From assembly GCF_010378095.1 (NCBI RefSeq), contig NZ_WNJL01000003.1, positions 38,548-102,547 on the forward strand: DNA of 64,000 nucleotides. Reading direction: 5' to 3'. The notes under the pieces are model-generated. The model ran no database searches, had not been told where the DNA came from, and worked only from the letters and a program-made list of their open reading frames with translations. Positions 20,323 to 58,210 of this stretch are shown here, piece after piece. A program made the translations under genes and the position numbers. The DNA is from Acidithiobacillus ferrianus (GTDB taxonomy: Bacteria; Pseudomonadota; Gammaproteobacteria; Acidithiobacillales; Acidithiobacillaceae). Position 1 is the stretch's first letter, and the number at the start of each line of letters is the position of its first letter.

Positions 20323-22686
20323 TCAATCAAAACGAACACGCGCGTTGCTTCCTATAAAGACTGGCGCCCCAGCCTGTCCCCGATAATACGGGAACGGCTT
20401 CATGACCTGCTCTGCATAGACCAAGTAGTTATTGTCGAGAATATTGTCGGCGAACAGACTAAACTTGACCGACTTCACATAGGCAGAATGAACGGGCATC
20501 TCATAGGATGTCGAAAAATCGAGTGTATCGTATGCAGGTAGAGTGACGCCTATCGTCTGCCCCTTGTTGGTCGCCATGTATTGACGCCCGACAAAATGCC
20601 CGGTGAGCGCAGCGTAAAGGCCGCCATGCTCATAGCGGATACCTGTCGTTGCGGTATACATCGGAATATAAGGCCGGTATTCTCCGGGATACGCAGTCCC
20701 ATTCACTCCCGAGGAAAGGCTACTATATTTAGCACTGGTATAGTTGTACGATCCAAACAGCGAGAAATCATCCTGAAGGGGCACATCCAAACCCAAAGTG
20801 ATGCCCTGATACAGCGCCGATCCATTATTATACTCAAAAGTCATACCAGTGGCAGGATCGTAGTATTCGCTGAATATATTGCTGAAGTTGCGCCTAAAGA
20901 CCGCCAAATTACCGGACACAACGTCACTGGTATACCTCACGCCAGCATCATAACTGATGTCTCCCTCGGGCTTGACGGTGATTGCCGCCGGGGTGGGCGC
21001 GGACCCGATGGCCGAATAGAAGGCGCTAATGTTGGGTACCTTATTCGTCTTACCTACGCTGAAATATAGATTTACGTTGTGCACCGGAGAGTATGAAAAT
21101 CCGAGAGATGGCTCCCAGAAATAATATGTATTATTTACATGTCCGCCATAATTATAATAGTAACCCGTCATATCATTACACCCAGTGGATACGACATTAT
21201 ACTTGACTCCGGGATATATGTGAAGGGCACCATCCAACAAATCGATATTATCCTGGAGATAGACATAGTTGTAGTTACGCGTATCATACTCGTCCCAGGC
21301 ATTGTTATACCCGTCGACATTCGGTACCGGACTGCTGCCGTACCAGTATTCAGCGCTGTGATCCTGACTGTAATCCACCATCGCGCCCAGTTCGATGGTG
21401 TTGTGCGGCGCAAAGAACGTCATCGATGGCAAGAAACCCACACTTTGAATGTCATCGATATAGTTGTGGAACTGCGTGCCCGCCGCTCCCGAGCCAAACA
21501 GGGCCACCGGATCATAGCTGTTGTTCACCGACGGGTATGCTGTCCAGGGCTCGAGGTTGGTCCCCACCGGATAGCCCTCATAGGTGGCGTATCCATAGTA
21601 AGCGGGGTTATAGTACGCCGCGTTGGTGAATGACGTTCTGTTCGCCGCCTGTTGCTGGATAAAGACTTTCGTCTTGGCGAGCATGTAATCATTCAATATG
21701 CTTTTCCACGACAAGATCACGTTCAGCGCGTGGGTATTCGTGCTACTGGACGCCACACCCAGCGGCGGCTGGTAAGAACGTCCGTTCTGGGCAATCAAAG
21801 TCAGCGGCACCAGAGACGGCTGACGCGCCGCCTCATTGTTATACACGGCAACCAGTTTCAATTGAGACAACCCGTTATTATATGGCTGAAGCAACGCAAA
21901 ATAATAAGAATTTATTTTGGCGAAGATGTTGTTCATAAAACTGGGAGCATGCGTGTAGGAGTATTTGAACAGCATTTCGGTGCCCGTTCCTGGCAGCGCC
22001 CCACTATTCACCGCAATACCCGTTGTGTAGTTGCCGCCACGATAGCCATACTTTCCGCCAGAGGCGTCGACATCCAGATAATACTTGGATGTGGGCAATG
22101 CGGGCTCGTAAGAAATCGTGCCACCGAGCGAGTTTATCCCATTCTGCGAGGGTTGATTGGCGCCACTGTACACCTTCACCGTCGAGATCTGACCCATCGT
22201 CAGTGGCGTATAGGCACGATCATCACCCGTACCGCCGGCACCACCGCGAAACGTATTGATAATGGGCACCCCATCAAAGTTCGACGCCATCTGCGCGCTC
22301 GTGAAGCCTTGGTAGGTGAACTCGTTATTCGTAGCGGACAGGTTCCCCGGTCCTTGGGAAATGACGTTCATTCCAGGCACGTGCTTCAATACGGACTGAA
22401 AGTTCTGCGCCGGTGACGCATGGGTCACGGTTTTCTTACTTACCGAGGTCACCGCTTTTTCCGGAGGCGCGATTTTTTTCACGGAGCCGACCTTTGTCAC
22501 CGTCCCGGAAGGGCTTCGACTTTCGGTAGAGGCGACGACACCGTCATCATCGGCATAAGAGAGTGTGGTAACAGATACGCTGGCCGCTGCGACTACCGCC
22601 GCATACAGCATTGCCGGTGCCATCGTGGAGACGGCGACGCTCATTCGTTTGGTGACAAGGATTTTATTACTCTGTCTGGTTTTCAT
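20323..22686 (-). CDS. TonB-dependent outer-membrane receptor 1
   Basis: A 787-residue TonB-dependent receptor. A long n-region precedes a hydrophobic signal segment (about residues 17-45). The plug domain spans roughly 85-210, with conserved elements around FQSVLKHVPGMNVISQGPG and NFDGVPI, and is followed by a 22-strand-type barrel very rich in Tyr, Asn, Gly and Ser. GGGAGAAAC precedes the ATG. The ligand is unknown, but the gene lies directly downstream of an exported phosphorylase-fold protein and a pyrimidine catabolic operon, so a nucleoside or nucleobase is the best guess. A related receptor lies at 35340-37676. The C-terminus ends VRFD, with Phe next to last. Confidence 0.85.
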   Translation of the reverse strand: MKTRQSNKILVTKRMSVAVSTMAPAMLYAAVVAAASVSVTTLSYADDDGVVASTESRSPSGTVTKVGSVKKIAPPEKAVTSVSKKTVTHASPAQNFQSVLKHVPGMNVISQGPGNLSATNNEFTYQGFTSAQMASNFDGVPIINTFRGGAGGTGDDRAYTPLTMGQISTVKVYSGANQPSQNGINSLGGTISYEPALPTSKYYLDVDASGGKYGYRGGNYTTGIAVNSGALPGTGTEMLFKYSYTHAPSFMNNIFAKINSYYFALLQPYNNGLSQLKLVAVYNNEAARQPSLVPLTLIAQNGRSYQPPLGVASSSTNTHALNVILSWKSILNDYMLAKTKVFIQQQAANRTSFTNAAYYNPAYYGYATYEGYPVGTNLEPWTAYPSVNNSYDPVALFGSGAAGTQFHNYIDDIQSVGFLPSMTFFAPHNTIELGAMVDYSQDHSAEYWYGSSPVPNVDGYNNAWDEYDTRNYNYVYLQDNIDLLDGALHIYPGVKYNVVSTGCNDMTGYYYNYGGHVNNTYYFWEPSLGFSYSPVHNVNLYFSVGKTNKVPNISAFYSAIGSAPTPAAITVKPEGDISYDAGVRYTSDVVSGNLAVFRRNFSNIFSEYYDPATGMTFEYNNGSALYQGITLGLDVPLQDDFSLFGSYNYTSAKYSSLSSGVNGTAYPGEYRPYIPMYTATTGIRYEHGGLYAALTGHFVGRQYMATNKGQTIGVTLPAYDTLDFSTSYEMPVHSAYVKSVKFSLFADNILDNNYLVYAEQVMKPFPYYRGQAGAPVFIGSNARVRFD

Positions 22687-22853
22687 CTCAGTTTCTCCCT
22701 CGATAGTTGGTAACGCAACAAAATATCCGCAAGATACATGTCATCCGCACAAGCCATGTGATGCTCTGTTCTCTTTGATCTGCAACAAATCACCTCATAG
22801 CGCCACCCTGTATTCCCGCACCAGGACCATGCACATTATTCTTGTAATAATAA

Positions 22854-23912
22854 TCACCCGGCGTTTCCGGAGCGCACACCCGTCGCCACGGAGGTGCGCG
22901 GCTTCGCCCGGCAGTTATCGGTCAATCCGCGAGGATCAGTTGGTGTTTCATAAAATTGAACTGGATATGGATTTCGCGATGGATAGACATACTTTCTGTT
23001 TAGAAGATCGCCGCCATATAATTCAATCACCCTAAGCATTATTTTGTCACTGATGTCTTGAGTAATTTGCGCCGCACTCTGCCGATGCCCATCCCGCGGC
23101 GGGACCCCGTTTCCGCTGAATTCAAATACACTATCGGATATGGTACTCACCTCGATGAAAGGGATGCCTTCCAGTTTTGCGACCGTGGCAGAAAACCAGT
23201 CACCATCCTCATCCACCTCATGAAAAACGTCATCGGTCTTCTTGATAAATGATTTATCGGCAAGCCACATCGTAGAGGTGCCCTGTATTCCATAATAATA
23301 TATTGTTGGATTCGCTGTTTTGAATTTGCCATTAATCCAGGATGGCAACTTTTCTCTGTCAACCACCTGTTGCGCCGCACAGGCCGTATATTTTTCTAGC
23401 TTCTTATTTAGATAAAAATACTGATAATCCTGAAGACTTGACTTTCCAGAAAATTCGTCCGGCGTTATTTTACCTGTTGGTGACATATAAAAATCGGTAA
23501 AGTTCACCTGTTTCGTTCCTATGATAACATCTCCTACATGCATCTTTCCCGGCGGAAGATGGGCGCCCGATGTCCCCGGGTACAACAGCGCTTTTATCTT
23601 AAAGTGATCCACCATGACTTGGGCAGTAATCGCGCGCGTATACTCTCCACCAAATGGCTGAACGCAAATCACCACAGGGATACCGTAAATATGCCCGATC
23701 TGATACTTGAAATGGCCTATCTGTACGGATCTATTCTTTTTGAACTCCTTCATGATCACTGCGTAATGCGCGGGTCCAACGGGAATGAGCAACCCGAGGT
23801 AAGCATTATTGCCCCTTCCGGGTTTTTGTGGACCGGCCTGCGCGCCGCCCACAGAAAAAAACAGGAAACAAACCGCAGAGATGATATGCGCGGCACGTCG
23901 CCAGAATCTCAT
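22854..23912 (-). CDS. Exported phosphorylase-superfamily protein
   Basis: A 352-residue protein with an N-terminal signal peptide (MRFWRRAAHI, then a hydrophobic stretch ending GGAQAG) and a nucleoside-phosphorylase/nucleosidase fold. LGLLIPVGPAHYAVIMKEF, the IYGIPVVICVQPFGG strand, LLYPGTSGAH and IPFIEVSTISDSVFEFSG correspond to the core strands and the ribose/purine site of the PNP_UDP superfamily. A longer upstream start exists but would bury the signal peptide. It would act in the periplasm, perhaps cleaving nucleosides to bases before uptake. A second, different exported protein of this general kind lies at 49459-50484. The conserved 48-bp element lies just upstream. Confidence 0.7.
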   Translation of the reverse strand: MRFWRRAAHIISAVCFLFFSVGGAQAGPQKPGRGNNAYLGLLIPVGPAHYAVIMKEFKKNRSVQIGHFKYQIGHIYGIPVVICVQPFGGEYTRAITAQVMVDHFKIKALLYPGTSGAHLPPGKMHVGDVIIGTKQVNFTDFYMSPTGKITPDEFSGKSSLQDYQYFYLNKKLEKYTACAAQQVVDREKLPSWINGKFKTANPTIYYYGIQGTSTMWLADKSFIKKTDDVFHEVDEDGDWFSATVAKLEGIPFIEVSTISDSVFEFSGNGVPPRDGHRQSAAQITQDISDKIMLRVIELYGGDLLNRKYVYPSRNPYPVQFYETPTDPRGLTDNCRAKPRTSVATGVRSGNAG

Positions 23913-24195: not shown

Positions 24196-24999
24196 TCACC
24201 CGCATCGCGCTCCCGCCCATGCGGCATGACGTCTGACGGTCTCGCGCGCCACCCGCGCGAGGCGCTCCTTCACCTGCGCGTAAACGCCTTCCCGCACGGA
24301 CTCGCCCTGTGTCCGCACGGCGATGACCCCGCACAGCGAAGCCGCATGCAACCCGAAGGTACGGGCGATGGTAAAGAGGGCCGAAGTCTCCATCTCGAAA
24401 TTCAACACGCCCAAATGCTGCCACTCCTCCAGACTGCCCTGGAAGCGCCGCTGAACGTAACCTGAGAAAGAGTCATAGCGTTCCTGCCCCGGCCAGAAAC
24501 TGTCGGAGGAACAGCAAATCCCGGTCTGATACGAAAAGTGATGATGCAAAGCCGCTTCCACCACTTTCTGAGTCAAAGGCAGGGAGGCCACCGCCGGAAA
24601 CTCCACCGGCGCATAATGACCGGACGTACCTTCTAGACGCACCGCTCCTTCGCTGATGATGAGGTCGCCCAGGGCGATGTGGGGCTGAATGGCGCCCGTG
24701 GTTCCCAGACGCAGGAAATAGGTGACGCCCAGGCGGGCCAGTTCTTCGATGGCGATACCCGTGGAGGGAGCGCCAATTCCGGTGGACATCACCAGAACGG
24801 GGATATTGCCCACGTAGCCCAGGGCGGAGCGATATTCGCGATGCTGGACGAGCTCCATGGATCGGTCCAAGAAACTTGCGATAGGCCCCACCCGGTCAGG
24901 GTCGCCTGGCAAAAAGACATAACGGGCCCCACACAGCATCGCCCGGGATAGCCCGATGTGATACTGCACCGCCTCCATATCCCCGACCACGCCCGTCAT
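24196..24999 (-). CDS. udp: Uridine phosphorylase
   Basis: A 267-residue nucleoside phosphorylase that splits uridine (and perhaps thymidine) with phosphate into base and ribose-1-phosphate. LPGDPDRV is at residues 30-37, STGIGAPSTGIAIEEL and RLGTTGAIQPHIALGDL follow, and NFEMETSALFTIA is the ribose-binding glutamate motif. All are typical of Udp. An AGGGGGTA-like ribosome site precedes the ATG. It has no signal peptide, so it acts in the cytoplasm, just after cytidine deaminase in the same operon. Another nucleoside as substrate is possible. Confidence 0.88.
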   Translation of the reverse strand: MTGVVGDMEAVQYHIGLSRAMLCGARYVFLPGDPDRVGPIASFLDRSMELVQHREYRSALGYVGNIPVLVMSTGIGAPSTGIAIEELARLGVTYFLRLGTTGAIQPHIALGDLIISEGAVRLEGTSGHYAPVEFPAVASLPLTQKVVEAALHHHFSYQTGICCSSDSFWPGQERYDSFSGYVQRRFQGSLEEWQHLGVLNFEMETSALFTIARTFGLHAASLCGVIAVRTQGESVREGVYAQVKERLARVARETVRRHAAWAGARCG

Positions 25000-25075: not shown

Positions 25076-25525
25076 TCATTGGCAGCCTCCTTTCTGCAGA
25101 TTCATCGCTCCGAAACTATTGGGCAACAGATCGCTGAAGGCCATGCGCTGCGGACTGCCCGCCAGCGTCGCCGTATAGACCCACATCGTAGGCGACGCAA
25201 ATTCGTTGAGCCGCTGACGACAGCTACCGCAAGGCCAGGCCGGGGAGTGTCCCTTGCAAGCAATATAGGCCGCCCGAATAGGCCTCGAGCCGAGGGTGGC
25301 GATCATCTGGCCAATCGCCACCGCTTCGGCACAAAGTCCGGAAGGGTATGCCGCATTTTCAATATTGCAGCCCTGAAAAATACGCCCGGACCCGGTCAGC
25401 AGCGCCGCACCCACCGGAAAATGGGAGTAAGGCGCGTAGGCACGTTGCAGCATCTCTTCCGCCGCCTTGCGCAATTGGGCGAGAACCGCCTCAGAAATCT
25501 CTGACGCTATCAGGGGGGTGTTCAT
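25076..25525 (-). CDS. cdd: Cytidine deaminase
   Basis: A 149-residue homotetrameric-type zinc cytidine deaminase converting cytidine to uridine. It has the substrate motif CNIENAAYPSGLCAEAVAI with zinc ligand Cys65 and catalytic Glu67, and PCGSCRQ giving Cys99 and Cys102. The ATG at 25525, preceded by GGAGA, overlaps the permease stop as ATGA. With udp it channels cytidine to uracil for the PreTA pathway encoded upstream in the same operon. Confidence 0.93.
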   Translation of the reverse strand: MNTPLIASEISEAVLAQLRKAAEEMLQRAYAPYSHFPVGAALLTGSGRIFQGCNIENAAYPSGLCAEAVAIGQMIATLGSRPIRAAYIACKGHSPAWPCGSCRQRLNEFASPTMWVYTATLAGSPQRMAFSDLLPNSFGAMNLQKGGCQ

Positions 25526-26883
25526 GCCATCTTTCTCCGTTGCACACGTTGTTCCATAACGCGGAGGCCACTGTAATAAATCACCGCGGTCATCAGGGCG
25601 GAGCACACCTGCCAGGGCAATATATGGATGAGTGCCGGGGGGATTAGAACGCCCAGCTGCGCCAGTACAATCCCGAAGATCAACGCGCCGAGTGCCCAGG
25701 GTGCTGGCCACAGAAAATAATCTCTCCAGGTATGGGCTCGTTGATAAAATAGGGAAATGGCATCGTCATAGCGCTTGCCGTGAAACCAGTCGACCACCAG
25801 AATGAAGCTGAAGGGAAAAAGCAAAGACCCCAGCATGGAAAGAAACCCCTCGATAAGATTCAGAATCCCTGCAATTGCCAGCAGCGTGGCGAAAACACCG
25901 AGCAGAATGACGATGGCAGGCTGCATGAATCGAGGTGGTTTACCGGCGACACTGATGACGGCAAGCAGCTTGGTCACCGCTGGATACAAGTTCATGGCGT
26001 TGGTATGGGCGATGGCGAGAATCACCCCGATGGCGGAGACTTCTCCCCAGAATGGAAGGTTTTTACCGAGCAAGGCGATATTCCAGTCCCCCGTCATCCG
26101 CAGCGATACCAGACCCAAGAGGCCCATGAAAAGTACCGCGGACATCACGCCTATGGCGGGGGAAAGTAGGTAAAGCGCCCGGTCTGAAGGTTTTTCCTGT
26201 GCCGTCCACGGAACACAAAAACGGGTGACCGTGGGGAAATCATAGGCCCAGGCCAACAGACTGAAACTCAGCACCCAATCGATATCCTGGCCCCAATCCA
26301 CACGTTGAGTCGCTACCGGAAACACAAAGGGATGTCGGGTAAACAGATAATAGGCCAGCACGGCATAGCAGAGCAGAAAAAGCAGGGCCGTGTACTGATA
26401 AAACTTTTCCAGCATCTCCATGCCAAAAAATACCAGGACCATTTGCAGTACGCCCAAAACGATATACCAGAGTATGCCGAAGCCCGGAAACAAGGTGCCG
26501 AGAATATTCCCGCCGACGTCCGTATTCAGACCGAACCATCCGGCACCGAGGACGGTATACAAAATAGCCAGCAGGGTGGCGCCCCCGATACCGAAAGTAC
26601 GCCGCGCCATCACCATGGAGATGATGGGGGTCTGACGGCCCATATGCGATAGCAGCATCGCCGGGATCAGCCCGATACCGGTGGCGAGCAATACGATCAG
26701 GATGAAATTCCACAGTCCGATACCATGGAGCAGTAAACCAATCACCGGTGTCGTTGCCGAAGCCGAGGCCAACGCCCAGATCAGAAATAACATGCCGGGA
26801 CGCATGGTACGGTCCACGCCGGGGACTGGCGCCACCCCCAAGGTTTCCACATGAGGGGTCTCCGAATGCGCCGCTTCAGTCAT
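25522..26883 (-). CDS. NCS1-family cytosine/purine permease (first)
   Basis: A 453-residue inner-membrane protein with about twelve hydrophobic segments of the nucleobase:cation symporter-1 family. The early motif ASASATTPVIG, SLLAWAYDFPTVTRFC and the late LFPFSFILVVDWF are in the positions expected for CodB-like permeases. It overlaps both neighbours (8 bases with the preceding NCS1 gene, ATGA with cdd). Cytosine, a purine or a ureide are all possible substrates. Confidence 0.82.
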   Translation of the reverse strand: MTEAAHSETPHVETLGVAPVPGVDRTMRPGMLFLIWALASASATTPVIGLLLHGIGLWNFILIVLLATGIGLIPAMLLSHMGRQTPIISMVMARRTFGIGGATLLAILYTVLGAGWFGLNTDVGGNILGTLFPGFGILWYIVLGVLQMVLVFFGMEMLEKFYQYTALLFLLCYAVLAYYLFTRHPFVFPVATQRVDWGQDIDWVLSFSLLAWAYDFPTVTRFCVPWTAQEKPSDRALYLLSPAIGVMSAVLFMGLLGLVSLRMTGDWNIALLGKNLPFWGEVSAIGVILAIAHTNAMNLYPAVTKLLAVISVAGKPPRFMQPAIVILLGVFATLLAIAGILNLIEGFLSMLGSLLFPFSFILVVDWFHGKRYDDAISLFYQRAHTWRDYFLWPAPWALGALIFGIVLAQLGVLIPPALIHILPWQVCSALMTAVIYYSGLRVMEQRVQRRKMA

Positions 26884-28429
26884 GTGTCACGCCCTCGGGT
26901 CTTGGTTCCGACTGGCCGCTGCGAATACCGGCATTACCCAGAAAATACTGGAGCCCCGCGTAACTGAAACCAGCCACTGAAAAGGTCCAGAACCAGCCGT
27001 AGACATAGAGTCGATCGAAAAATCCGGGGTGCGCGACGATTCCACCGGGGGCCTGCGCCGCCGCCACGAAACCCGGCAGGATAGGCAGAATGGCGATGGC
27101 CATGGCGACGAAAGCCCAACCGTTCCAACGTGGATAAATGCCATCCCGGAGATAAAGATCGCGCAACGACAACTGACGCCGGCGCACCCACCAGTAGTCG
27201 GTGAGCATGATCCCGGCGATAGCGCCGAGCAGACTACCGTAGCCCGCGAGCCAAGTGAAAATATAGGCGGAGGCATTCGCCATGAGCAGCCAGGGGCACA
27301 TCAATATCCCCATCACCCCGGTGATGATACCGCCCGCCCGAAAACTGATCGCCCGGGGTGCCAGATTGGAGAAATCATTGGCGGGAGACACCACATTGGC
27401 ACCCATGTTGATACTGGTTTGCGCCAGTAAAATGGTTCCCATGGCGATCACCAGAATCCAGCCGTTCTGACTGATGGCCGTGATCAGCGTGATGGGATTC
27501 CACAGGGGTTTATGAAAAATACCCATGGCCGCGGCCGTCACAAAAATACCGATGAAACTGGTGCCCATCATCCCCAGCGGCAAACCGATGGACTGCCCCA
27601 GTATCTGTGCCTTCTGCGAGCGGGCGAAGCGGGTGAAATCCGGGATATTCAGACTCAGGGTCGCCCAATAGCCTACATTGGCGGCGAGACCGGGCCAGAA
27701 TATTTCCCAGAAGGTGTGCGTAGAGGGTTTTGCCAGTAGATCCGAGTGACGTAACACCGCCGTAAAACCCTGTCCGGCGATCAGCGCCCAGAGGAAGAGC
27801 AGTAAAAGCAGTACGATCAGTACCGGCGCGGCCATAGTTTCAAAGCGCTTAATCGCGCGCATTCCCCGCAGGACGATGGCCATTTGCAGCATCCAGAACA
27901 GGCCAAAGGCGATCAACTGATGGCCACGGATCTGCGCCCACGAACTCCAGAAATGAGTCATGAGCGCTGACAGCGCCAGTCCGCCCAGCCAGGTCTGAAT
28001 ACCGAACCAGCCACAACCCACCAGACCGCGCGCCATGGCCGCTGCCTTGGCACCCGTGGTTCCGAACGATGCGCGGACAAAAACCGGGAAAGGAATGCCA
28101 TAGCGCACACCCACATAAGCATTGAGCAACATGGGCATCAGCACCAGCAGGTTGCCAAGCGTTACGGTGCACAATGCCTGCCACCAGGTCATCCCCGCCA
28201 TCATCAATCCGGACGCCAGGGTATAGGTAGTAAGAACGGCGGACATGCTGATCCAGAGCGCCGTGATATTCCAGGTGTTCCAGGTCCGCTCCGCGGCACC
28301 CACGGGGGCGAGATCCGGATTGTAGAGAGGAGAACCTGCCACCTCCGCCTTCAGGCTGGTCAGCGCTGCCCCTTCCGGGACGTCAATTGCCGACCAAGCG
28401 GTCTGCCGGGTATCGCGCGACGCGGTCAT
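26876..28429 (-). CDS. NCS1-family uracil/allantoin/hydantoin permease (second)
   Basis: A 517-residue NCS1 transporter of the larger PucI/HyuP/FurD-like type. It opens with the hallmark YNPDLAPVGAAERTWNTWN before the first membrane segment, continues with ALWISMSAVLTTYTLASGLM and RASFGTTGAKAAAMARGLVGCGWFGIQTW, and has LTDYWWVRRR late. I used the ATG at 28429, one base after the dihydropyrimidinase stop; a GTG at 28450 would extend it by seven residues. Next to dihydropyrimidinase, uracil or a dihydropyrimidine is the likeliest cargo. Confidence 0.85.
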   Translation of the reverse strand: MTASRDTRQTAWSAIDVPEGAALTSLKAEVAGSPLYNPDLAPVGAAERTWNTWNITALWISMSAVLTTYTLASGLMMAGMTWWQALCTVTLGNLLVLMPMLLNAYVGVRYGIPFPVFVRASFGTTGAKAAAMARGLVGCGWFGIQTWLGGLALSALMTHFWSSWAQIRGHQLIAFGLFWMLQMAIVLRGMRAIKRFETMAAPVLIVLLLLLFLWALIAGQGFTAVLRHSDLLAKPSTHTFWEIFWPGLAANVGYWATLSLNIPDFTRFARSQKAQILGQSIGLPLGMMGTSFIGIFVTAAAMGIFHKPLWNPITLITAISQNGWILVIAMGTILLAQTSINMGANVVSPANDFSNLAPRAISFRAGGIITGVMGILMCPWLLMANASAYIFTWLAGYGSLLGAIAGIMLTDYWWVRRRQLSLRDLYLRDGIYPRWNGWAFVAMAIAILPILPGFVAAAQAPGGIVAHPGFFDRLYVYGWFWTFSVAGFSYAGLQYFLGNAGIRSGQSEPRPEGVTHD

Positions 28430-28430
28430 T

Positions 28431-29888
<1,458 letters not shown>

Positions 29889-34692: not shown

Positions 34693-34759
34693 CGTGCCGA
34701 TGCGTCACTTCTCCCGCTATCCGACAAGGCAAATATTCTTATCCCCTGGATGTATACTC

Positions 34760-37903: not shown

Positions 37904-37951
37904 TTAAAGTGTTATTTTCTTGTGCGCGCGTTACATAAAACACAACGGTCA
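37904..37951. repeat. 48-bp island element, copy B
   Basis: Second copy of the element described at 24028. It ends ten bases before the LysR start codon, so it lies in the leader or promoter of that gene. Confidence 0.7.
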
Positions 37952-37961
37952 AGACCCGATC

Positions 37962-42943: not shown

Positions 42944-43140
42944 GGGCGGAATACCGGGGCCAATGCTTCCGTCATCTCCAGCGGATGCGCCTCCAACACC
43001 TTGGCCATCCCTGCGCTCAGCATGAAATAACGCTTCACGTCGGCGCGCCATTCTTCGCGGATATCAAGCCCCAAAACATCGAAGAGATAGTCCATATAGG
43101 TATCCACGGATGTGTCAGCATCCGTTTTGGATGAATTCAT
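42940..43140 (-). CDS. AtzG-like small subunit (DUF4089)
   Basis: A 66-residue GatC-like helical protein. The core reads YMDYLFDVLGLDIREEWRADVKRYF and ends [13 protein letters not shown]. AtzG binds and stabilises AtzE in a GatCA-like complex, and the gene order and ATGA overlap here match that. GGAGAAACGGG precedes the ATG at 43140. The start lies inside the end of the XdhC gene. Confidence 0.8.
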   Translation of the reverse strand: MNSSKTDADTSVDTYMDYLFDVLGLDIREEWRADVKRYFMLSAGMAKVLEAHPLEMTEALAPVFRP

Positions 43141-50484: not shown

Positions 50485-51524
50485 AGTCCGTTCTGTGGTG
50501 AAGCGCCGTACTCGTCCAACTCCTTGAGCAGGGACTGTTTTCGCTGATCACTGCAAAACGCGGCCGTAACGGCGTTACGCTCCAGAATCAGCGCGTCTCT
50601 CGCGGTCAAATTCAGACAGGAAAGGGTATCGATCATGTTTTCATTCAGATATCCGCCAAAGTACGCCGGATCATCCGAATTGATGGTCACCCACAGACCG
50701 GCTTTCAATAACCGGGCCAGATTGTGTGTGGATAATTGGTCAAATACCTTGAGGGCGACATTGGAGAATGGACAGACCGTCAGGGGAACACGGTCATCCA
50801 CCAGGCGATGCACCAGTACCGGGTCCTCCAAACAACGCACCCCATGATCTATGCGTTCTACGCCAAGCACATCCAGCGCTTGCCAAATATAGGCGGGCGG
50901 ACCCTCTTCCCCGGCGTGGGCAACGCGATGCAGACCCAGGGACCCAGCCACCGCAAACACCTCCTGAAACCGCCCTGGCGGATGGCCCAACTCCGCGGAA
51001 TCGAGGCCGATGCCCACGATGCCCCCCAAGCGACACGCACGCTCCAACAGCGCCACTGCGGGTTCTGGATCGCGATCCCGCTCAAAACAGAGAATCAGTG
51101 CACTGGAAATATCCCAGTCACGCTCGGCATCCCGCAATGCCGCATGGATGCCACCGATCACCGCCTCCAAAGCCACGCCATTGGCGAGGTGCGTCTGCGG
51201 GTCGAAAAACAGCTCCGCATGCCGGATCCGCTGGACTTTACAGCGCGCCAAATAGGCCTGAGTCAACTCATAAAAGTCCCGCTCTTTCCGTAATACCGAA
51301 CCACCCAGATAATAGACCTGCAGAAAACTTTGCAAGTCGGCGAACTGATACGCCGCTCGCGCGGCATCTATCGTCCGATACGGAATGTGCACGCCGTTAC
51401 GACGGGCGAGGGTAAGCAACATTTCCGGTTCCAGAGTGCCCTCGATGTGCAGGTGCAACTCGACCTTGGGAAGAGATTGCACAAAATCGGGGAGCGTCGC
51501 TGCCGTGTTCGTCATGCTTTCCAT
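50481..51524 (-). CDS. Adenine deaminase (AAH type, adenosine deaminase superfamily)
   Basis: A 347-residue zinc aminohydrolase. KVELHLHIEGTLEPEML gives the HxH metal site (His24, His26). GIGLDSAELGHPPGRF, HAGEEGPPAYIWQALDVLGVERIDHGVRC and TINSDDPAYFGGYLNEN follow in canonical order. The GLDSAE-GHPP form is typical of the adenine deaminase branch rather than adenosine deaminase. It would convert adenine to hypoxanthine and ammonia. AGGAAG precedes the ATG at 51524. Confidence 0.85.
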   Translation of the reverse strand: MESMTNTAATLPDFVQSLPKVELHLHIEGTLEPEMLLTLARRNGVHIPYRTIDAARAAYQFADLQSFLQVYYLGGSVLRKERDFYELTQAYLARCKVQRIRHAELFFDPQTHLANGVALEAVIGGIHAALRDAERDWDISSALILCFERDRDPEPAVALLERACRLGGIVGIGLDSAELGHPPGRFQEVFAVAGSLGLHRVAHAGEEGPPAYIWQALDVLGVERIDHGVRCLEDPVLVHRLVDDRVPLTVCPFSNVALKVFDQLSTHNLARLLKAGLWVTINSDDPAYFGGYLNENMIDTLSCLNLTARDALILERNAVTAAFCSDQRKQSLLKELDEYGASPQNGL

Positions 51525-51568: not shown

Positions 51569-52795
51569 CTACGCGGCGCGTTCGCCGCTTAACCAAGTGC
51601 CCAGCGGGCGGTGTTCCAAATCGGCCGGCGCGCCGCTCAGGCAAGCCTCAAACCAGGCCTCCACAGAATCCGCGGCCGATTTTTGCGGCAAGAGCACAAA
51701 GTCGGCCCGCTTTCCTACCGTCAACTCGCCACCAGAAGCCCCTCTGCCCATGCACTCGGCACCCGCCTTGGTAGAACGATACAAGGCCTCTTGCGGCGTA
51801 ACGGGAACACCGGCATCCCGATGCACCCCCAAAAACCGTTGCATGACATGCAGCATGCTGTGACTGGGGCCCCCGCCTATGTCGCTCGCCAAGGCAAAGG
51901 GAATATGATGGGCACGCAATTGCTCCAGTGGCATGCGCCGATTACCCAACGCCTCATTACTGGTGGGGCAGTGCGCGACCCACGCGCCACGCGCCCGGAC
52001 GCAGCGCCATTCCTCGTCACGCATTTCAACGCAGTGCCCCAATATCGTCCTGGGTGTCAGAAGACCCGCGCGATCATAGACTTCGGTATAATGCGCGGCG
52101 TCCGGAAACAGTTCTTTGACCCATCGCAGTTCCGTCAGAGATTCCGCGAGGTGCGTCTGGATTAGACAGGGATGCTCCGCCGCCACCCGGCCCAGCATCT
52201 TCAGCGATTTTGCGGTCAAGTTCGGTGCAAAGCGGGGGGTCAGCGCATAATGTGCCATATCCGTCCGCTGCAGGAAGGCGCGTAACGCCCCGGGATCATG
52301 CAGACTATGATCGGTCAATGTGTGCGGCGCGTGGACCGCCATGAGGACATTGCCAACCACCCAATCACCCCGCATGGACGCCAACGCAATCTGGGTAGCC
52401 TCGGCATGCGGACTGGAATAACTCATGCCCATCACCGTCCCCGCGCGCAGCAGATCGGCATAGAATCGGACCGCCGCCACGCGAGCCAGATCCGTATCCG
52501 CATAACACGCCTCTTCAGGCCAGATGTGCTCCTGCAGCCAGGTCAGGAGATCTCCGGAAAATTGTCCGCTGACACGGTGCTGTACCCAATGCAAATGCAC
52601 ATCCACGAAGCCCGGAACGATCACGCCGTCTAGATGTTCGATGTCTGGATTGGCACCCATCTGGCCAGCGATCACGCAAAAATCATCGAGACCCATAATG
52701 ACGCCATGGTCCACCCACAGCGCTCCGTCCCGATAAAATCTCCAGGTATTCACATCTATCGGGTTGAGTATCGATGCCCTGAATATCTTTCGCAT
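51569..52795 (-). CDS. guaD: Guanine deaminase
   Basis: A 408-residue amidohydrolase converting guanine to xanthine and ammonia. It has PGFVDVHLHWVQHRVSG with metal ligands His67 and His69, LTWLQEHIWPEEACY, YALTPRFAPNLT, LIQTHLAES, LGHCVEM and ALASDIGGGPSHSML. All are in GuaD positions, including the aromatic-Q after HLH. It lies five bases after the NCS1 permease and 44 before adenine deaminase. Confidence 0.88.
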   Translation of the reverse strand: MRKIFRASILNPIDVNTWRFYRDGALWVDHGVIMGLDDFCVIAGQMGANPDIEHLDGVIVPGFVDVHLHWVQHRVSGQFSGDLLTWLQEHIWPEEACYADTDLARVAAVRFYADLLRAGTVMGMSYSSPHAEATQIALASMRGDWVVGNVLMAVHAPHTLTDHSLHDPGALRAFLQRTDMAHYALTPRFAPNLTAKSLKMLGRVAAEHPCLIQTHLAESLTELRWVKELFPDAAHYTEVYDRAGLLTPRTILGHCVEMRDEEWRCVRARGAWVAHCPTSNEALGNRRMPLEQLRAHHIPFALASDIGGGPSHSMLHVMQRFLGVHRDAGVPVTPQEALYRSTKAGAECMGRGASGGELTVGKRADFVLLPQKSAADSVEAWFEACLSGAPADLEHRPLGTWLSGERAA

Positions 52796-52800: not shown

Positions 52801-54180
52801 TTACCCACCGAGACGCTGGTCTCGGACTTCGCCGACGGCAACATTAGGCGAAAACAACAGCTTGTACAGTAGCGACATAACGATGGTCGTAGACACGCCA
52901 ATTAATGGCGATATATCTGTACCGTGCAATAATCGCGCCCCATATCCCTCCCAAATCGGATTATTCGAGAACAACACGGTGACAATGATTCCTAACGCCA
53001 GGATCCCGGCATTCGCAGGCGTGCTATGCAGTCTGCCGGGTCCTCCACGCGCTTCCGGAACCACATCCCACAAAACATAAATGATCATTGCCCCGGTCCA
53101 GGGGGCAGCCACGACAATCAGCAAATCCAAAAAGGTTTGAAACGAATCCCAAAAAGAAGGAGCCACAAAAAGCATGTAGAGGCCCAGCAGCGTTGCCAAC
53201 AGGGCGTCCAGAATCGTAAACTTCTTGCGATCCAGATCCTGGCCCACCACCACCGCCAGACTAAAAGCGGAACTGTAGGAATTCAAAAAATTAGAGGCCA
53301 ACAAACCTAATATGGCGAACAGACAAAAACCCAGATAAAGTACCGGGGTGCCTAATCCGGTGGCAGTGATGGTAATGCCGGATGCGCCCACCTGAATGCC
53401 GCCACGGACGTAAAGCGTAATCGCCAGCGCAAGGATGAGTCCTCCACCCAGAAATCCTCCCAGGCTGGGCCACAACGCCATCTTGCCGAGAGGCGTGTCA
53501 CGGCGCACATACCGGGAGTAATCAGAGGCAAACATCGTCCATGAGAACGCGCCGCCCATGAGGGCCAGTGAAATCCCACCCAAGGCTTGGAGCCCGTCAA
53601 CATGACCGACAGCGGGAGCCAGCGAAAGCGCCTGCCCGCCATGCAGGTGCATCAGTATCGCTAGCGCAAACAGCGCCAGAAACAGTGCCCCTACCGTCTG
53701 CGCGGCCACGATGGCCTTATATCCGATAATGGGCACTACAAAATTGCCCAGAATGGCCAATGCCAATGCATAATAAATACTGCCGTTCGTGGGCACCACT
53801 CCATAATTGTCAAAAACACTGCGGAGAATGTAGACCACCAGCACCAATACCACAGCCTGCCAACCCAATTGAGACAACCAGTTACTTAGGGAAATCAATT
53901 TATTGACCGACTTTCCAAAAACGCGCGCAGACACGGCCATCGTCGGAATCCCATACACAAAGCCCGGGATACTGAGGATACCCACGGTGGCGAACAGCGC
54001 GGAAGCCAGCAGTACGACCCATAAAAACGGTGCCAAGGGAAACCACTGAGCGATGAGGACTCCGACCGGCAAACTGGAAGCGGTCATGGTCGCAGCTAGC
54101 CAAATCAGGGCGACATGGGGCGCCGAACTGGTGCGTTCCACTTCTGTCGTGGCACTGATCGAATGCCGGTCACCCATCAT
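52801..54180 (-). CDS. NCS1-family purine/cytosine permease (third)
   Basis: A 459-residue inner-membrane transporter with about twelve hydrophobic segments and NCS1 features: ATMTASSLPVGVLIAQWFP, FSWTMFASDYSRYVRRDTP and a late LLASNFLNSYSSAFSLAVV. It begins the catabolic part of the right-arm operon, directly before guanine and adenine deaminases, so purine bases are the likely cargo. Two ATGs in tandem (54180, 54177) follow GGGAGAAAG. Confidence 0.82.
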   Translation of the reverse strand: MMGDRHSISATTEVERTSSAPHVALIWLAATMTASSLPVGVLIAQWFPLAPFLWVVLLASALFATVGILSIPGFVYGIPTMAVSARVFGKSVNKLISLSNWLSQLGWQAVVLVLVVYILRSVFDNYGVVPTNGSIYYALALAILGNFVVPIIGYKAIVAAQTVGALFLALFALAILMHLHGGQALSLAPAVGHVDGLQALGGISLALMGGAFSWTMFASDYSRYVRRDTPLGKMALWPSLGGFLGGGLILALAITLYVRGGIQVGASGITITATGLGTPVLYLGFCLFAILGLLASNFLNSYSSAFSLAVVVGQDLDRKKFTILDALLATLLGLYMLFVAPSFWDSFQTFLDLLIVVAAPWTGAMIIYVLWDVVPEARGGPGRLHSTPANAGILALGIIVTVLFSNNPIWEGYGARLLHGTDISPLIGVSTTIVMSLLYKLLFSPNVAVGEVRDQRLGG

Positions 54181-54234: not shown

Positions 54235-55023
54235 CTAATTTGATCCCGCGCTCACTTCGACATCAATTTGAAAAACCGTATTTTGTTTGGGCATCTTTTT
54301 CAGAAAGGGCGGGAAGCCCCCCGCTTTAACCGCGGCAAGCGCCGCACGATTTACCGCGCCCAGGGGACTCGCTTTGATGATTTTCTCCCAGAGCAATCGA
54401 CCCGAAGGAGAAATCTCGAATTCCACGGTCGCCTTGCCACTCAGTCCCATCGCCTTCAACTCGGCCGGAACACGCAGGTTCTGCTGAATCATCGGCCGCA
54501 ACAATCCGACATAGCGCCCCATCAATGACGCCGTTTGCTGAGCCGACATCGGCGGGGGTGCCGGTGGTGGCGTCACCACCGGCTTAGGTGCCGGTACCGT
54601 TGGCGCCGGCGTTGGCGGCGTGACCGTCCTTGCGGGTGGCGTTGGCGCCGGCTTTGGTGGCCTCTCCACCTGCGGGTGGGGACGCGGCGGAGGCGGTGTC
54701 ATTCGATGCATCACCGGCTTGGGTGGAACCGGCTTGGGTGGAACCGGCTTGGGTGGAACCGGCTTGGGTGGAACCGGCTTGGGTGGAACCGGCTTGGGGA
54801 TGGCCTTCGAGGGCGGCTGCGGCAGGGTAACCATCTGCACCGCCATCACGTGCTGCTTTGGTTTCACCGGTTTTACCGGGGGAGTACTTTGTCCAAACCA
54901 TATCAAACCCAGCACCAACAAGGCTTCAACCGCCACGGCACCGGCGAGGGCATACTTGAAATGGCGGTCATTCGGCTCAGGGACAGGTGAATTATTCACC
55001 GTCATGAACATCGTGGTAGTCAT
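54235..55023 (-). CDS. tonB: TonB energy-transducing protein
   Basis: A 262-residue TonB. It has one N-terminal membrane segment (about residues 24-44), a long Pro/Lys/Val periplasmic spacer containing five exact KPVPP-type repeats, and a C-terminal domain with LRVPAELKAMGLSGKATVEFEISPSG and FPPFLKKMP. It transmits energy from ExbB-ExbD to outer-membrane receptors. The ATG at 55023 has AGGA upstream. The location implies a dedicated partner for the island's two receptors. Confidence 0.92.
   Translation of the reverse strand: MTTTMFMTVNNSPVPEPNDRHFKYALAGAVAVEALLVLGLIWFGQSTPPVKPVKPKQHVMAVQMVTLPQPPSKAIPKPVPPKPVPPKPVPPKPVPPKPVPPKPVMHRMTPPPPRPHPQVERPPKPAPTPPARTVTPPTPAPTVPAPKPVVTPPPAPPPMSAQQTASLMGRYVGLLRPMIQQNLRVPAELKAMGLSGKATVEFEISPSGRLLWEKIIKASPLGAVNRAALAAVKAGGFPPFLKKMPKQNTVFQIDVEVSAGSN
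54716..54790 (-). repeat. Five 15-bp tandem repeats in tonB
   Basis: Five identical copies of ggcttgggtggaacc (plus-strand reading) encode the five-residue repeats of the TonB proline spacer. The copies are identical at DNA level, which suggests recent expansion and possible length variation. Confidence 0.95.
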
Positions 55024-55114
55024 GTGAATGGATCCTGTTTTCGAGTATGGCAACATGCGCCAGATACACCATGTTTATTCCCTATATTTTTTCTCGTTAA
55101 TATCCTTACGGCGT

Positions 55115-55513
55115 TCACGTCGGCTTCGCCGCAATACCAATGCTGGTCACTCCGGCTTTTTGACACGCGCCCATCACCTGCACGAAATCCTTGAAGGGAA
55201 CCATTTTATCGGCCGCGATCGTCACTTGCGTCCGTTTGCTATCGCCGTCCCCCGCCAGGAAATTCTGTAATTGCTCTAAACTCATTTTTTTACCCTTCAC
55301 CACGACACCACCATCCTTCACCAGGTTGATCACGAAATGCGGATGTGGCAACACTTTGGTTGCGCTGGATGTGGGCAAATCAAGCTTTAACCCCTTATCC
55401 GTGATCATTTGCAAAGTAATCATGATGAAAAAGACGAGCAAAAATAGCATCACGTCGATCATCGGAATAATTTCGACACGTCCTTTTTTACGGGAGCGGC
55501 GTTGGGGTAGCAT
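55115..55513 (-). CDS. exbD: ExbD, TonB-system proton channel subunit
   Basis: A 132-residue protein with one membrane segment carrying the essential aspartate (Asp20 in EIIPMIDVMLFLLVFF) and a C-terminal periplasmic domain (TQVTIAADKMVPFKDFVQVM). It partners ExbB to harness the proton gradient for TonB. It lies 21 bases after exbB and 91 before tonB. Confidence 0.93.
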   Translation of the reverse strand: MLPQRRSRKKGRVEIIPMIDVMLFLLVFFIMITLQMITDKGLKLDLPTSSATKVLPHPHFVINLVKDGGVVVKGKKMSLEQLQNFLAGDGDSKRTQVTIAADKMVPFKDFVQVMGACQKAGVTSIGIAAKPT

Positions 55514-55534: not shown

Positions 55535-56242
55535 TTATGCGGTGACCTTGACGGTTACGGGAACGGGCGGGGGATTGACCGCAGCCGTCTCATCCAACAC
55601 CACCGGCGCGCCGTCCAAACGGTTCATGAGCACCAGCTTCAGGGATTCGAGCTGAAAAATGGTCTTCTCTATAGCGTTATTGAACGCATTGAAACTCAGC
55701 AATCCGATCATCGCGATGAAAAGCCCGGAAGCGGTGGCAATCAGTGCATCGGCCACACCACCCGTGACTGCGGTAGGGTTGTGACCCGGAGCCGCAAGAA
55801 CGGAAAAGGCATGGAACATGCCGAGAATGGTCCCGAACAGACCGAGAAGGGGTGCCAGGGTCACTATGGTATCCAGAACCCAAAGGCGCTTGTCCAGCGT
55901 CGGCATGGTCAGGAAGATGGCTTCGTCCAAGCGGTTCGCAAACGCTTCTCCACGGGCGCTGCCGTAATGATGAATCAAATTGAAATGCCGGAGGGCCACG
56001 CCCAGCAAGGACTCTTCCGGCAATCCTTTCGCCAAGACAACCAGTTCTTCCAGATCGGGACGCCGCAACTTGCCACGGGCGGATATTCCCCATAGAATCT
56101 TTTTGCCTTTGCGAATAGCGTTACGCAGATACCAGCTCCGATCGAAGATCACGGCCAATTCAATGACCAAAAGAAGCATCAACAAGTACAAAACACCATC
56201 CGAATAATTGGCGAGGTGTATGAGATAGCCCAACGAAATCAT
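55535..56242 (-). CDS. exbB: ExbB, TonB-system proton channel subunit
   Basis: A 235-residue MotA/TolQ/ExbB-type protein. The first membrane segment is near residues 15-33, and the conserved pair spans about 125-190 (LDTIVTLAPLLGLFGTILGMFHAF, VADALIATASGLFIAMIGLLSFN). It is the first gene of the ~17-kb right-arm transcription unit. A sigma-54-type promoter and two NtrC-like boxes lie upstream. Confidence 0.93.
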   Translation of the reverse strand: MISLGYLIHLANYSDGVLYLLMLLLVIELAVIFDRSWYLRNAIRKGKKILWGISARGKLRRPDLEELVVLAKGLPEESLLGVALRHFNLIHHYGSARGEAFANRLDEAIFLTMPTLDKRLWVLDTIVTLAPLLGLFGTILGMFHAFSVLAAPGHNPTAVTGGVADALIATASGLFIAMIGLLSFNAFNNAIEKTIFQLESLKLVLMNRLDGAPVVLDETAAVNPPPVPVTVKVTA

Positions 56243-56388: not shown

Positions 56389-56401
56389 TACCATCGTCAT
56401 A

Positions 56402-56582: not shown

Positions 56583-56623
56583 TGCTGACGCTGAAGCAGC
56601 GCCAAAAACGAGGGAACTTCATC

Positions 56624-58210
56624 ATGGTCAACCAGTTGAAAAGAGAAGTGGGGTTTTCGGGGCTTATTTTTGCCAGTCTGGGCGGCATTATTGGTTCTGG
56701 TTGGCTCTTCGGTCCGCTCAATGCCGCGCGGGTCGCGGGCCCCCTCAGTATCTATTCATGGCTGATCGGAGCGGTCACCATTCTGTTTCTGGGTCTGACT
56801 TACGCTGAAGTGGGGCCGCTATTTCCCCGCGCCGGCGCGGCTACCCACATCGCGAACGTCGTCCACGGCAACCTGCTCGGTAAAATCTGGGCTTGGCTCC
56901 TGTTCATGTTTTACATCGCCATTGCCCCGGTAGAGGTGGTCGCGGTACTCACCTACGCCAACAACTACATCCCCGGGCTTCTGATAAGCAATACCGGCCT
57001 GCTCAGCGGGCCAGGGATACTTGCCGCCATCGCTTTATTGGGTGTGATGTTTCTGCTCAACTTCCTCGGCATCCGGCGCGTAGCGAAGGTTTTTACCGGG
57101 TTGGGCTGGTGGAAGTTAGCCATACCCATTCTGACGATCGTGCTACTGGTAGCCTTTTCCTACCACCCGGAGAATCTCCACATCGTGCACTGGCATGAGA
57201 ATGTGCATGGCATGTTCGCGGCGGTGGCTTCTTCCGGCATCGTCTTCAGCTATCTGGGCTTTCGGCAAGCCATCGAACTGGGCGGAGAAAGTCGTGAGCC
57301 CGGCAAGCATATCCCCATGGCGGTCATCGGCTCTATCCTGATCGGCGCGATCATCTATGTCGGATTGCAATGGGCCTTTCTGGTCAGCATGCCCCCGTCA
57401 GAATTGACCCAAGGCTGGGCCAAGTTGAGTTTCACCGGAATCTTCGGGCCATTTGCCGCTATAGCCTCCCTGATTGGCATCAGCTGGCTGGCGGTACTGA
57501 TTTATATCGATGCCTTGCTCTCACCGGGGGGCACGGCGCTCGTCTATGCCACCTCGGCGGCACGCGCAGTGGTCGCCAACGGCGAAGTGGGGGCCGGGCC
57601 CCGCGCCTTCACCAAGATCACCGAAGGCGGCGTTCCCTGGGTCGGCATCATTGTCGCCTACGTTATCGGGTGTCTGTATTTTCTGCCCTTTCCTTCCTGG
57701 CAAAAACTGGTGGGTTTCATCACCACCATTTCCGTCATCACCTATGGCATCGGGCCTATCGTTCTGCTGCAGTTGCGTCATTCCGTCCCGGATATGGAAC
57801 GTCCGTTCCGCTTGTGGGGTGCCCACGTCATTGCGCCCATCGCCTTCATCCTCTCTTCCCTGGTCGCTTACTGGGGAGGCTTTCAGGCGCTTTCTTATAT
57901 CTTTGGAACCTTGTTTGGCGTGCTCACCCTCTATGGCATCCAGCATAGGATACGTGGCAACAGCGATGGCCAGATTTTGGGGTTTCGACACATCACCTGG
58001 ATATTTCCCTACTTCGGCGGACTCTGGGTGCTCTCCTGGTTTGGACCCAAAGTGCTGGGAGGAACCGGCGGCATCCCTTTCTACTGGTCGATGGCGGCAG
58101 TGGCCGTGCTGGCGAGTATTTGCATGGTCTGGGCCTTGAAGGTAACGGTTCCCGATAGTCAGGTAACGGACTATTTTTCCGCCATGGATCAAGAAGGCAT
58201 CGAACTGTGA
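56624..58210 (+). CDS. APC-family amino acid permease
   Basis: A 528-residue inner-membrane permease with about twelve to fourteen segments. The first has the APC signature GLIFASLGGIIGSGWLFGPLNAARVAG, followed by PRAGAATHIANVVHGNLLG and SSGIVFSYLGFRQAIELGGESREPGKHIP. It is nearest in style to aspartate/glutamate or amine:proton symporters. GAGGGAAC precedes the ATG. In this setting beta-alanine import or export is a reasonable but unproven guess. It diverges from exbB and converges with the RND operon. Confidence 0.82.
   Translation: MVNQLKREVGFSGLIFASLGGIIGSGWLFGPLNAARVAGPLSIYSWLIGAVTILFLGLTYAEVGPLFPRAGAATHIANVVHGNLLGKIWAWLLFMFYIAIAPVEVVAVLTYANNYIPGLLISNTGLLSGPGILAAIALLGVMFLLNFLGIRRVAKVFTGLGWWKLAIPILTIVLLVAFSYHPENLHIVHWHENVHGMFAAVASSGIVFSYLGFRQAIELGGESREPGKHIPMAVIGSILIGAIIYVGLQWAFLVSMPPSELTQGWAKLSFTGIFGPFAAIASLIGISWLAVLIYIDALLSPGGTALVYATSAARAVVANGEVGAGPRAFTKITEGGVPWVGIIVAYVIGCLYFLPFPSWQKLVGFITTISVITYGIGPIVLLQLRHSVPDMERPFRLWGAHVIAPIAFILSSLVAYWGGFQALSYIFGTLFGVLTLYGIQHRIRGNSDGQILGFRHITWIFPYFGGLWVLSWFGPKVLGGTGGIPFYWSMAAVAVLASICMVWALKVTVPDSQVTDYFSAMDQEGIEL

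Follow-up and report, generated by a model that had tools for sequence, protein, structure and literature searches.

Can an acidophilic bacterium draw nitrogen from nucleobases through outer-membrane receptors that are driven by a TonB motor of their own? This question is raised by a stretch of 64,000 nucleotides from Acidithiobacillus ferrianus (contig NZ_WNJL01000003.1, positions 38,548 to 102,547), hereafter the window, in which two TonB-dependent receptors, TBDR1 and TBDR2, stand among genes for the salvage and degradation of pyrimidines and purines. The island sits on contig C23 of the 3.17 Mb genome, and the original prediction had described about 38 kb of it as one self-contained system covering every step from the outer membrane to ammonia. 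Our analysis indicated that it probably comprises two linked nitrogen-scavenging modules.

In each module, a TonB-energised receptor would bring a nucleoside, a nucleotide breakdown product or a nucleobase into the periplasm, where an exported phosphorylase-family protein (NUP1 or NUP2) would release the base for NCS1-type permeases to carry inwards. Pyrimidines would be deaminated and then converted by PreT-PreA, dihydropyrimidinase, and beta-ureidopropionase into beta-alanine, ammonia, and CO2. Purines would pass through adenine and guanine deaminases and oxidation by xanthine dehydrogenase (XDH), after which the ring would be opened without uricase, most likely by an AtzD-family enzyme acting on an oxidised heterocycle. 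The resulting ureido compound would be dismantled by AtzG-AtzE, HpxZ, HpxW, and ureidoglycolate-lyase-like (UGL) proteins, and the ExbB-ExbD-TonB set of the purine module is predicted to energise at least TBDR2. The activity of the NUP proteins and the direction of flow are those that we infer.

All of the components named earlier were present between positions 20323 and 56242 as open reading frames (ORFs) matching their families, several of them below the curated NCBIfam cut-offs. The predicted gene list was thus confirmed, and two genes that it had overlooked were added, an AtzG-like gene (42940-43140) and an AtzH/HpxZ gene (41146-41532), both hidden in other frames beneath longer ORFs. The region falls into two separable modules, a pyrimidine module with TBDR1 and a purine module with TBDR2. 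Since the purine module with TBDR2 stands in two related genomes (G011 and G014) from which the pyrimidine genes are absent except for short NCS1a remnants, there are two modules with separate receptors, and the idea of all 38 kb as one system was rejected. The gene order is conserved in many genomes, and chance is therefore excluded. In the purine module, 18 genes from the gamma-glutamyltransferase-family gene to ExbB run on a single strand, spaced by -56 to +61 bp, adjoined by TBDR2 and a divergent LysR gene, as follows (scores in bits).

35340..37676, minus strand: TBDR2, TonB-dependent receptor, 778 aa (PF00593 85, PF07715 34, both above cut-off)
37920..38873, plus strand: LysR-type regulator, divergent from TBDR2 and co-conserved next to it
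38884..40503, minus strand: gamma-glutamyltransferase-family, HpxW-like protein, candidate amide hydrolase (TIGR00066 349, cut-off 358)
40529..41137, minus strand: MocA/MobA-like molybdopterin nucleotidyltransferase (PF12804 76 vs. 27)
41146..41532, minus strand: AtzH/HpxZ homologue (NF033625, HpxZ, 191 vs. cut-off 135; PF11533 180)
41546..42943, minus strand: AtzE/HpxY-type amidase (NF006631 710 vs. cut-off 461; 6c62 477)
42940..43140, minus strand: AtzG/HpxX-like small subunit (PF13318 45 vs. 24; HpxX model 20, below cut-off 70)
43115..44098, minus strand: XdhC-type molybdoenzyme maturation protein (TIGR02964 152, below cut-off 162)
44095..45189, minus strand: AtzD-family ring-opening amidohydrolase (NF052395 386 vs. 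360; PF09663 429)
45199..45783, minus strand: UGL-like protein (PF04115 48 vs. 23; NCBIfam models below cut-off)
45780..46700, minus strand: XDH FAD subunit (NF043083 167, below cut-off 310)
46645..47109, minus strand: XDH [2Fe-2S] subunit (TIGR03198 160, below cut-off 254)
47106..49397, minus strand: XDH molybdopterin subunit (TIGR03196 451, below cut-off 784)
49459..50484, minus strand: NUP2, exported PF06516 (NUP) protein (PF06516 168 vs. 27; signal peptide by eye)
50481..51515, minus strand: adenine-deaminase-type protein (NF006850, named adenosine deaminase, 478 vs. 419)
51569..52795, minus strand: guanine deaminase (NF006679 317, below cut-off 351)
52801..54180, minus strand: NCS1-type permease c (PF02133 45 vs. 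23.5)
54235..55056, minus strand: TonB (TIGR01352 43 vs. 27)
55115..55513, minus strand: ExbD/TolR-type protein (TIGR02801 74, below cut-off 127)
55535..56242, minus strand: ExbB/TolQ-type protein (TIGR02796 78, below cut-off 221)

Several of these assignments were refined by structures and residues. The adenine-deaminase-type protein had 3ou8 (354 bits) and 3rys (349 bits) as its best solved relatives, both of which we take to act on adenine. XDH kept the aligned xanthine-binding Glu/Arg/Glu of the bovine enzyme (XOR) at the GGKE, YRTLS, and VGE positions, which presumably correspond to Glu802, Arg880, and Glu1261. The HpxW-like protein matched the single-chain structure 2nlz first (253 bits), followed by chains A and B of 5hft (224.5 and 210.9 bits), presumably Klebsiella HpxW. 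The module TonB is one of eight TonB_C matches above cut-off in the genome.

The pyrimidine genes from ureidopropionase to cdd are spaced by -20 to +13 bp, and udp, NUP1, and TBDR1 continue on the same strand after cdd at distances of 76 to about 283 bp. The starts of the cdd, PreT-like, AtzE/HpxY-type, and adenine-deaminase-type genes were taken from a frame reading, and the start and signal peptide of NUP1 were inferred by eye.

20323..22686, minus strand: TBDR1, TonB-dependent receptor, 787 aa (PF00593 102, PF07715 39, both above cut-off)
22854..23912, minus strand: NUP1, exported phosphorylase-superfamily protein (PF01048 39 vs. 25; conserved set)
24196..24999, minus strand: uridine phosphorylase, udp (NF008383 289 vs. 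cut-off 262)
25076..25525, minus strand: cytidine deaminase, cdd (TIGR01354 135 vs. cut-off 114)
25522..26883, minus strand: NCS1-type permease a (TIGR00800 78, below cut-off 353)
26876..28450, minus strand: NCS1-type permease b (TIGR00800 333, below cut-off 353)
28431..29885, minus strand: dihydropyrimidinase/D-hydantoinase (TIGR02033 577 vs. cut-off 393)
29889..31211, minus strand: PreA, dihydropyrimidine dehydrogenase subunit (NF006183 668 vs. cut-off 335)
31201..32562, minus strand: PreT-like reductase (glutamate-synthase-small-subunit-like families, none listed above cut-off; adjoins PreA)
32576..33445, minus strand: beta-ureidopropionase-like carbon-nitrogen hydrolase (TIGR03381 267, below cut-off 410; pathway position)
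33864..34433, plus strand: omega-aminotransferase (AptA type, beta-alanine), truncated (189 aa vs. 439-479 aa in six relatives)
34694..35317, plus strand: PuuR-type regulator (NF007408 145, below cut-off 211), next to the aptA-type gene

All four enzyme types of reductive pyrimidine catabolism (PreTA, dihydropyrimidinase, and beta-ureidopropionase) are contiguous here, with PreA and dihydropyrimidinase above their cut-offs and PreT and ureidopropionase assigned by family and position. Unlike that known pathway, the set comes with a TonB receptor and with NUP1, an exported phosphorylase-like protein that weakly matched MTA/SAH nucleosidases. The aminotransferase, truncated in the A. ferrianus strain, is probably not working.

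Co-inheritance was assessed in a sample of 25 Acidithiobacillaceae genomes (G000-G024). Orthologs of TBDR2 occurred in 13 of them, as did AtzD at an identity of at least 61%; both were present in 12 genomes, one without the other in two (G007 and G005), and neither in 11 (Fisher p = 3.3e-5, uncorrected for ancestry). The orthologs in the 12 other genomes were 74-92% identical to TBDR2 and adjoined purine-module genes wherever the flank was readable. In 11 of the 12 genomes that have both, TBDR2 and AtzD are separated by no more than about 16 kb of one contig; the twelfth (G015) carries them on two contigs that are cut at the ends. G007, with TBDR2 only, is an 85% complete draft whose contig begins inside the receptor gene. 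TBDR1 was present in ten copies in nine genomes, nine of the copies with NUP1 or NUP1b nearby and the tenth (G022) with cdd and NCS1a. TBDR1, NUP1, cdd, and NCS1a join TBDR2 directly in G006 and G015 without the ring-reducing genes (cdd and NCS1a are partial in G015); the contig of G013 ends after NCS1a, and G007 and G010 additionally carry deoC and a phosphomutase. Each receptor is strongly associated with its own module.

The purine module is also found on megaplasmids. That of A. caldus SM-1 carries it with a TBDR2 of 72% identity, in the order ExbB, ExbD, TonB, permease, guanine and adenine deaminase, NUP2, insertion elements, TBDR2, XDH, UGL, AtzD, XdhC, AtzG, AtzE, HpxZ, MocA, HpxW-like, and LysR. 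Another part of the SM-1 megaplasmid has the TBDR1 ortholog, interrupted by ISAtc1, after ExbB-ExbD and before NUP1b and NUP1; apart from these two, that stretch yielded no nucleobase gene. Plasmid p1 of strain MTH-04 was read from TBDR2, again split by ISAtc1, to LysR. Farther away, two metagenome-assembled genomes (MAGs) of Proteobacteria, YF3.bin57 and SKS1.bin40, carry purine-module genes at 39-71% identity, with TBDR2 at 48% and 46%, respectively. Both encode TBDR2, NUP2, the HpxW-like protein, guanine deaminase, XDH, UGL, AtzD, XdhC, MocA, ExbB-ExbD-TonB, and NCS1c, and both have a receptor of 34% identity head to head with TBDR2; the set is in one stretch in YF3.bin57 and on two contigs in SKS1.bin40, both ending inside the HpxW-like gene. 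The dedicated ExbB-ExbD-TonB of the original prediction thus held up as a co-conserved part of the purine module, shared with the SM-1 megaplasmid and these two divergent MAGs.

Both receptors have plug (PF07715) and barrel (PF00593) domains above the cut-offs and are 31% identical to each other; a protein search with TBDR2 gave 17 matches, 13 of them at 42% identity or more. Their relationships were examined in a quick tree, with long-branch warnings, of 109 receptors, 96 of which were labelled for their gene context; to count as nucleobase-linked, a row had to have one or more of 23 genes within 8 kb. The related-loci search was run with an alignment of the closer receptors, and the tree left out receptors below 600 aa, duplicates (115 to 94 rows), and double-entered loci, the omitted rows including L110, a 39% receptor at the place of TBDR1 in a pyrimidine module. 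The labels of the two window receptors were set by hand. Nucleobase context, present in 29 of the 96 labelled rows, required four changes on the tree against a shuffled mean of 25.1. The linked rows were those of the TBDR1 clade (11 of 11), the TBDR2 clade (15 of 15 labelled), the MAG pair, and L123, where a 28% receptor of a Steroidobacteraceae MAG stands beside a reductive pyrimidine set. One member of the TBDR1 clade, L036, was labelled through a single NCS1-type gene. This locus (L036:883-7215) may be a further unit for heterocycle uptake: it pairs a third receptor type (46%) with an FAD oxidoreductase, a ureidoglycolate-lyase-like protein, and an NCS1-type permease. A broken receptor paralogue (53%) with an internal stop was seen on contig C15 of G000 (162022-163718). 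Nucleoside or base uptake is the simplest reading of the receptors and a probable one. The expectation that they recur with nucleobase genes held in Acidithiobacillaceae; relatives at about 30% identity mostly stand without such genes in the stretches read.

How the purine ring is opened is a separate question. A search for uricase (PF01014) in 25 genomes, 16 of which are Acidithiobacillaceae, found none, with control matches in 2 of 14 genomes, and therefore the ring would be opened some other way. Within the A. ferrianus genome, neither a PF00576 (HIUase-type) protein, with control matches in 4 of 14 genomes, nor a PF06181 protein was found. The claim of every step to ammonia is consequently too strong for the purine branch, in which the tested urate-opening enzymes were not found. 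The most likely ring-opener is the AtzD-family enzyme, with an oxidised heterocycle as its presumed substrate. The protein scored 282 bits against cyanuric acid hydrolases and 170 against barbiturase, and it kept the Ser-Lys dyad and the Arg positions (alignment to 6bum and motif positions). The AtzD family makes acylureas from cyclic ones, and the downstream proteins resemble enzymes that dismantle acylureas; HpxW removes the last amide. A passage of PMC6219798 assigns the removal of an amide nitrogen to AtzG-AtzE and that of a carboxyl to AtzH.

The neighbours of more distant AtzD relatives are informative about the product. On two unlike enterobacterial plasmids, an AtzD relative (about 45%) stands with an NCS2 symporter, AllFGH-type genes, and carbamate kinase, these being the two records read for this purpose out of 132 plasmid records with a match. 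AllFGH, the oxamic transcarbamylase, splits oxalurate according to a portion of PMC11326118. On a Rhizobium plasmid, another relative lies beside a cysteine hydrolase and an allophanate hydrolase. Because two unrelated acylurea-degrading systems adjoin AtzD relatives, the product is likely an acylurea. The enterobacterial genes run AtzD-NCS2-DUF2877 (AllH type)-FdrA (AllF)-DUF1116 (AllG type)-carbamate kinase (L166:5995-13086 in NZ_OQ821180.1 and L172:6995-14636 in NZ_CP056596.1) and look like a transferable operon for cyclic ureides as a nitrogen source. This operon resembles the island in placing an AtzD relative by a nucleobase symporter; it differs in having AllFGH instead of AtzGEH/HpxW, and neither XDH nor a TonB receptor was seen in the parts of the plasmids that were read.

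A PF09663 search of 398 genomes of the phylum found the family in 14, and the AtzD contexts of the 13 others were read widely for eight and about 1.5 kb to each side for five. Among these contexts, only that of G039 pairs AtzD with a UGL-like gene, the rest of the module not being nearby. This pair (L141:5698-7502; AtzD 55%, UGL-like 59%) comes from a distant genome of the same class. A protein search with AtzD gave 4867 hits, some of them named Acidihalobacter and one, at 99% identity, named A. ferrianus. In G005, a second AtzD (41%) on contig C46 (L154:9505-15565) stands by a related FAD oxidoreductase, a glyoxalase-family protein, and an NMT1/THI5-type ABC transporter.

From these data we tentatively propose a complete TonB-driven purine route in which a cyclic amidohydrolase of the AtzD fold would take the place of uricase after XDH. 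The enzyme may hydrolytically open the oxidised purine, or an alloxan- or barbiturate-like product that arises from it and that acid favours, to an acylurea; AtzG-AtzE, HpxZ, and HpxW would then produce ammonia and a small dicarboxylate, and the route would spread on megaplasmids with its own receptor and TonB motor. Of the whole proposal, purine opening without uricase carries the greatest novelty and the least certainty. In the Klebsiella hpx purine pathway, HpxW, HpxX, HpxY, and HpxZ lead from oxalurate to oxalate. The island resembles it in the context of purine oxidation, an HpxZ above cut-off, and candidate homologues of HpxW and of HpxX/HpxY (AtzG/AtzE) in one operon. It differs in having an AtzD-family protein, an attached TonB receptor, and ExbB-ExbD-TonB, and searches found neither uricase nor a PF06181 or HIUase-type protein, nor an HpxO above cut-off. 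The block was not taken for the classical hpx pathway, since none of the urate enzymes searched for was found.

Several observations weigh against the two-module reading and its purine branch. A nucleobase gene was lacking nearby in 67 of the 96 labelled receptor relatives (Acidiphilium, Rhodanobacter, Burkholderiales, other receptors of the same genome, and more), and the ligands of both receptors are what we infer. NUP2 had no significant homologue among solved structures. AtzGEH and adenine deaminase were not found in the stretches read of the two MAGs. G005 has the XDH-to-HpxW block without TBDR2, and the block can therefore be present where passage of the outer membrane takes a different path; transposase-like ORFs were seen by eye on either side of it. 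No XDH match was obtained in G007, or in G022, which keeps AtzD, AtzGEH, the HpxW-like protein, and the deaminases. The tested urate enzymes were not found, OHCU decarboxylase and allantoinase not being searched for, and the HpxO model, which no control genome passes, reached 31 of 500 bits in A. ferrianus. Finally, AtzD keeps the signature of cyanuric acid hydrolases, and an allophanate hydrolase (795 bits) is encoded elsewhere in the genome, which makes a cyanurate-like substrate conceivable. Beside TBDR1 in G022 (L030:13023-17775), two VanA-type Rieske oxygenases are encoded, one fused to a flavodoxin/CysJ-like reductase; such oxygenases might replace XDH in this genome.

The alternative that survives best, though somewhat unlikely, is that the receptors import phosphorylated ligands (nucleotides, oligonucleotides, or other organophosphates), which exported phosphoesterases would dephosphorylate before the NUP proteins free the base, so that both nitrogen and phosphorus are scavenged. 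Relatives of the PF04185 phosphoesterases, exported proteins of about 930 aa or of the PLC type, are near 25 of the 67 unlinked receptors, several nucleobase-linked rows have both, and one is directly beside TBDR1 in L016, L018, L021, L025, L028, and L030. The frequency of these neighbours among the unlinked rows suggests a larger receptor family as their source, one whose ligands may be phosphorylated. However, the window contains no PF04185 gene, and the copies in the genome accompany other receptors on contig C29; nor does any such relative occur near the TBDR2 rows of Acidithiobacillaceae, and the substrates of PF04185 are diverse. The exported protein of about 930 aa, with a terminal PF04185 match, occurs beside receptors in Acidithiobacillus, Acidiphilium, and Rhodanobacter (L045:6163-8958, L025:8850-11663, L077:7247-10021, and others).

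A second alternative, which we regard as doubtful, concerns the enzymes. The XDH-like protein could be a uracil dehydrogenase and AtzD barbiturase-like, so that uracil would pass through barbiturate to ureidomalonate, and AtzGE, HpxZ, and HpxW would continue through malonamate to malonate in an oxidative pyrimidine route alongside the reductive one. The chemistry fits each enzyme class, and the pairing of AtzD with NCS2 and AllFGH-type genes on the two enterobacterial plasmids is in its favor. Barbiturases do belong to the AtzD family, with Gln in place of Arg, as stated in a section of PMC4051656. At the position inferred to match Arg188, however, the island protein has the Arg, which weakened its candidacy as a standard barbiturase. 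Moreover, most of the genomes read have NUP2 and the adenine and guanine deaminases linked to the block, and XDH keeps the aligned xanthine-binding residues.

It is considerably less probable that AtzD is a true cyanuric acid hydrolase and that AtzDGEH, together with a distant AtzF, degrade cyanuric acid. The protein passed the NCBIfam model for cyanuric acid amidohydrolase, AtzG, AtzE, and AtzH are present besides the allophanate hydrolase noted above, and in G203 and G132 relatives of AtzE and AtzH are likewise near an AtzD relative. A passage on the atzDGEHF operon of Pseudomonas sp. ADP (PMC6219798) describes homologues of AtzD, AtzG, AtzE, and AtzH in one operon, whereas those of the island are linked to XDH, purine deaminases, and an HpxW-like gene, with AtzF elsewhere. 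In the Acidithiobacillaceae genomes that were read, AtzD accompanies UGL-like and HpxW-like genes and, except in G022, XDH, and since these genes travel with it, a plain cyanuric acid operon was kept as a rival only; cyanurate would leave HpxW no task, and AtzGEH was missing from the stretches read of the MAGs. The least probable alternative, that the receptors import a metal complex or cofactor beside nucleobase genes placed there by chance or co-regulation, draws on weak NCBIfam matches to siderophore, haem, and transferrin receptors and on the many iron or metal receptors among solved relatives of the receptor profile, but each receptor is paired with a different catabolic module across many genomes and a megaplasmid, and the best solved relatives of the TBDR1 profile were YncD and a PQQ transporter, which at 52 bits scored above FecA (38 bits), in weak matches confined to the later barrel. 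The view that would have undone the proposal, siderophore-like receptors recurring without nucleobase genes, applies by half, at a distance, and siderophore identity finds no support here.

Next to the island, an amino-acid-type permease gene (56624-58210) keeps its position beside ExbB in G008 and lies about 9 kb from TBDR1 in G022.

The two-module system is a new combination of known parts. In the top-ranked titles and abstract openings of the literature on TonB-dependent nucleoside or nucleobase uptake, such genes in Acidithiobacillus, and AtzD/HpxW contexts, no such system was described. The earlier claim of novelty needs narrowing, since TonB-dependent nucleoside use has a precedent in the Rus ribose/nucleoside locus of Bacteroides, where TonB-type outer-membrane uptake of the SusC/SusD type is joined to nucleoside use and aimed at ribose as carbon. 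The island differs in its predicted role in nucleobase nitrogen catabolism and in that no SusD-type family matched the island ORFs scanned. The Rus polysaccharide utilization locus (PUL) is treated in part of PMC12596196.

If the proposal is correct, the island would add a new ligand class for TonB-dependent transporters in Proteobacteria and would give a natural role to the AtzD fold, which has so far been studied mainly with cyanuric acid. It would also add a uricase-free way of opening purines. Autotrophic mineral-oxidising acidophiles would then reuse nucleic acid debris as a source of nitrogen, and with the genes carried on A. caldus megaplasmids, this would be relevant to bioleaching and acid drainage communities.

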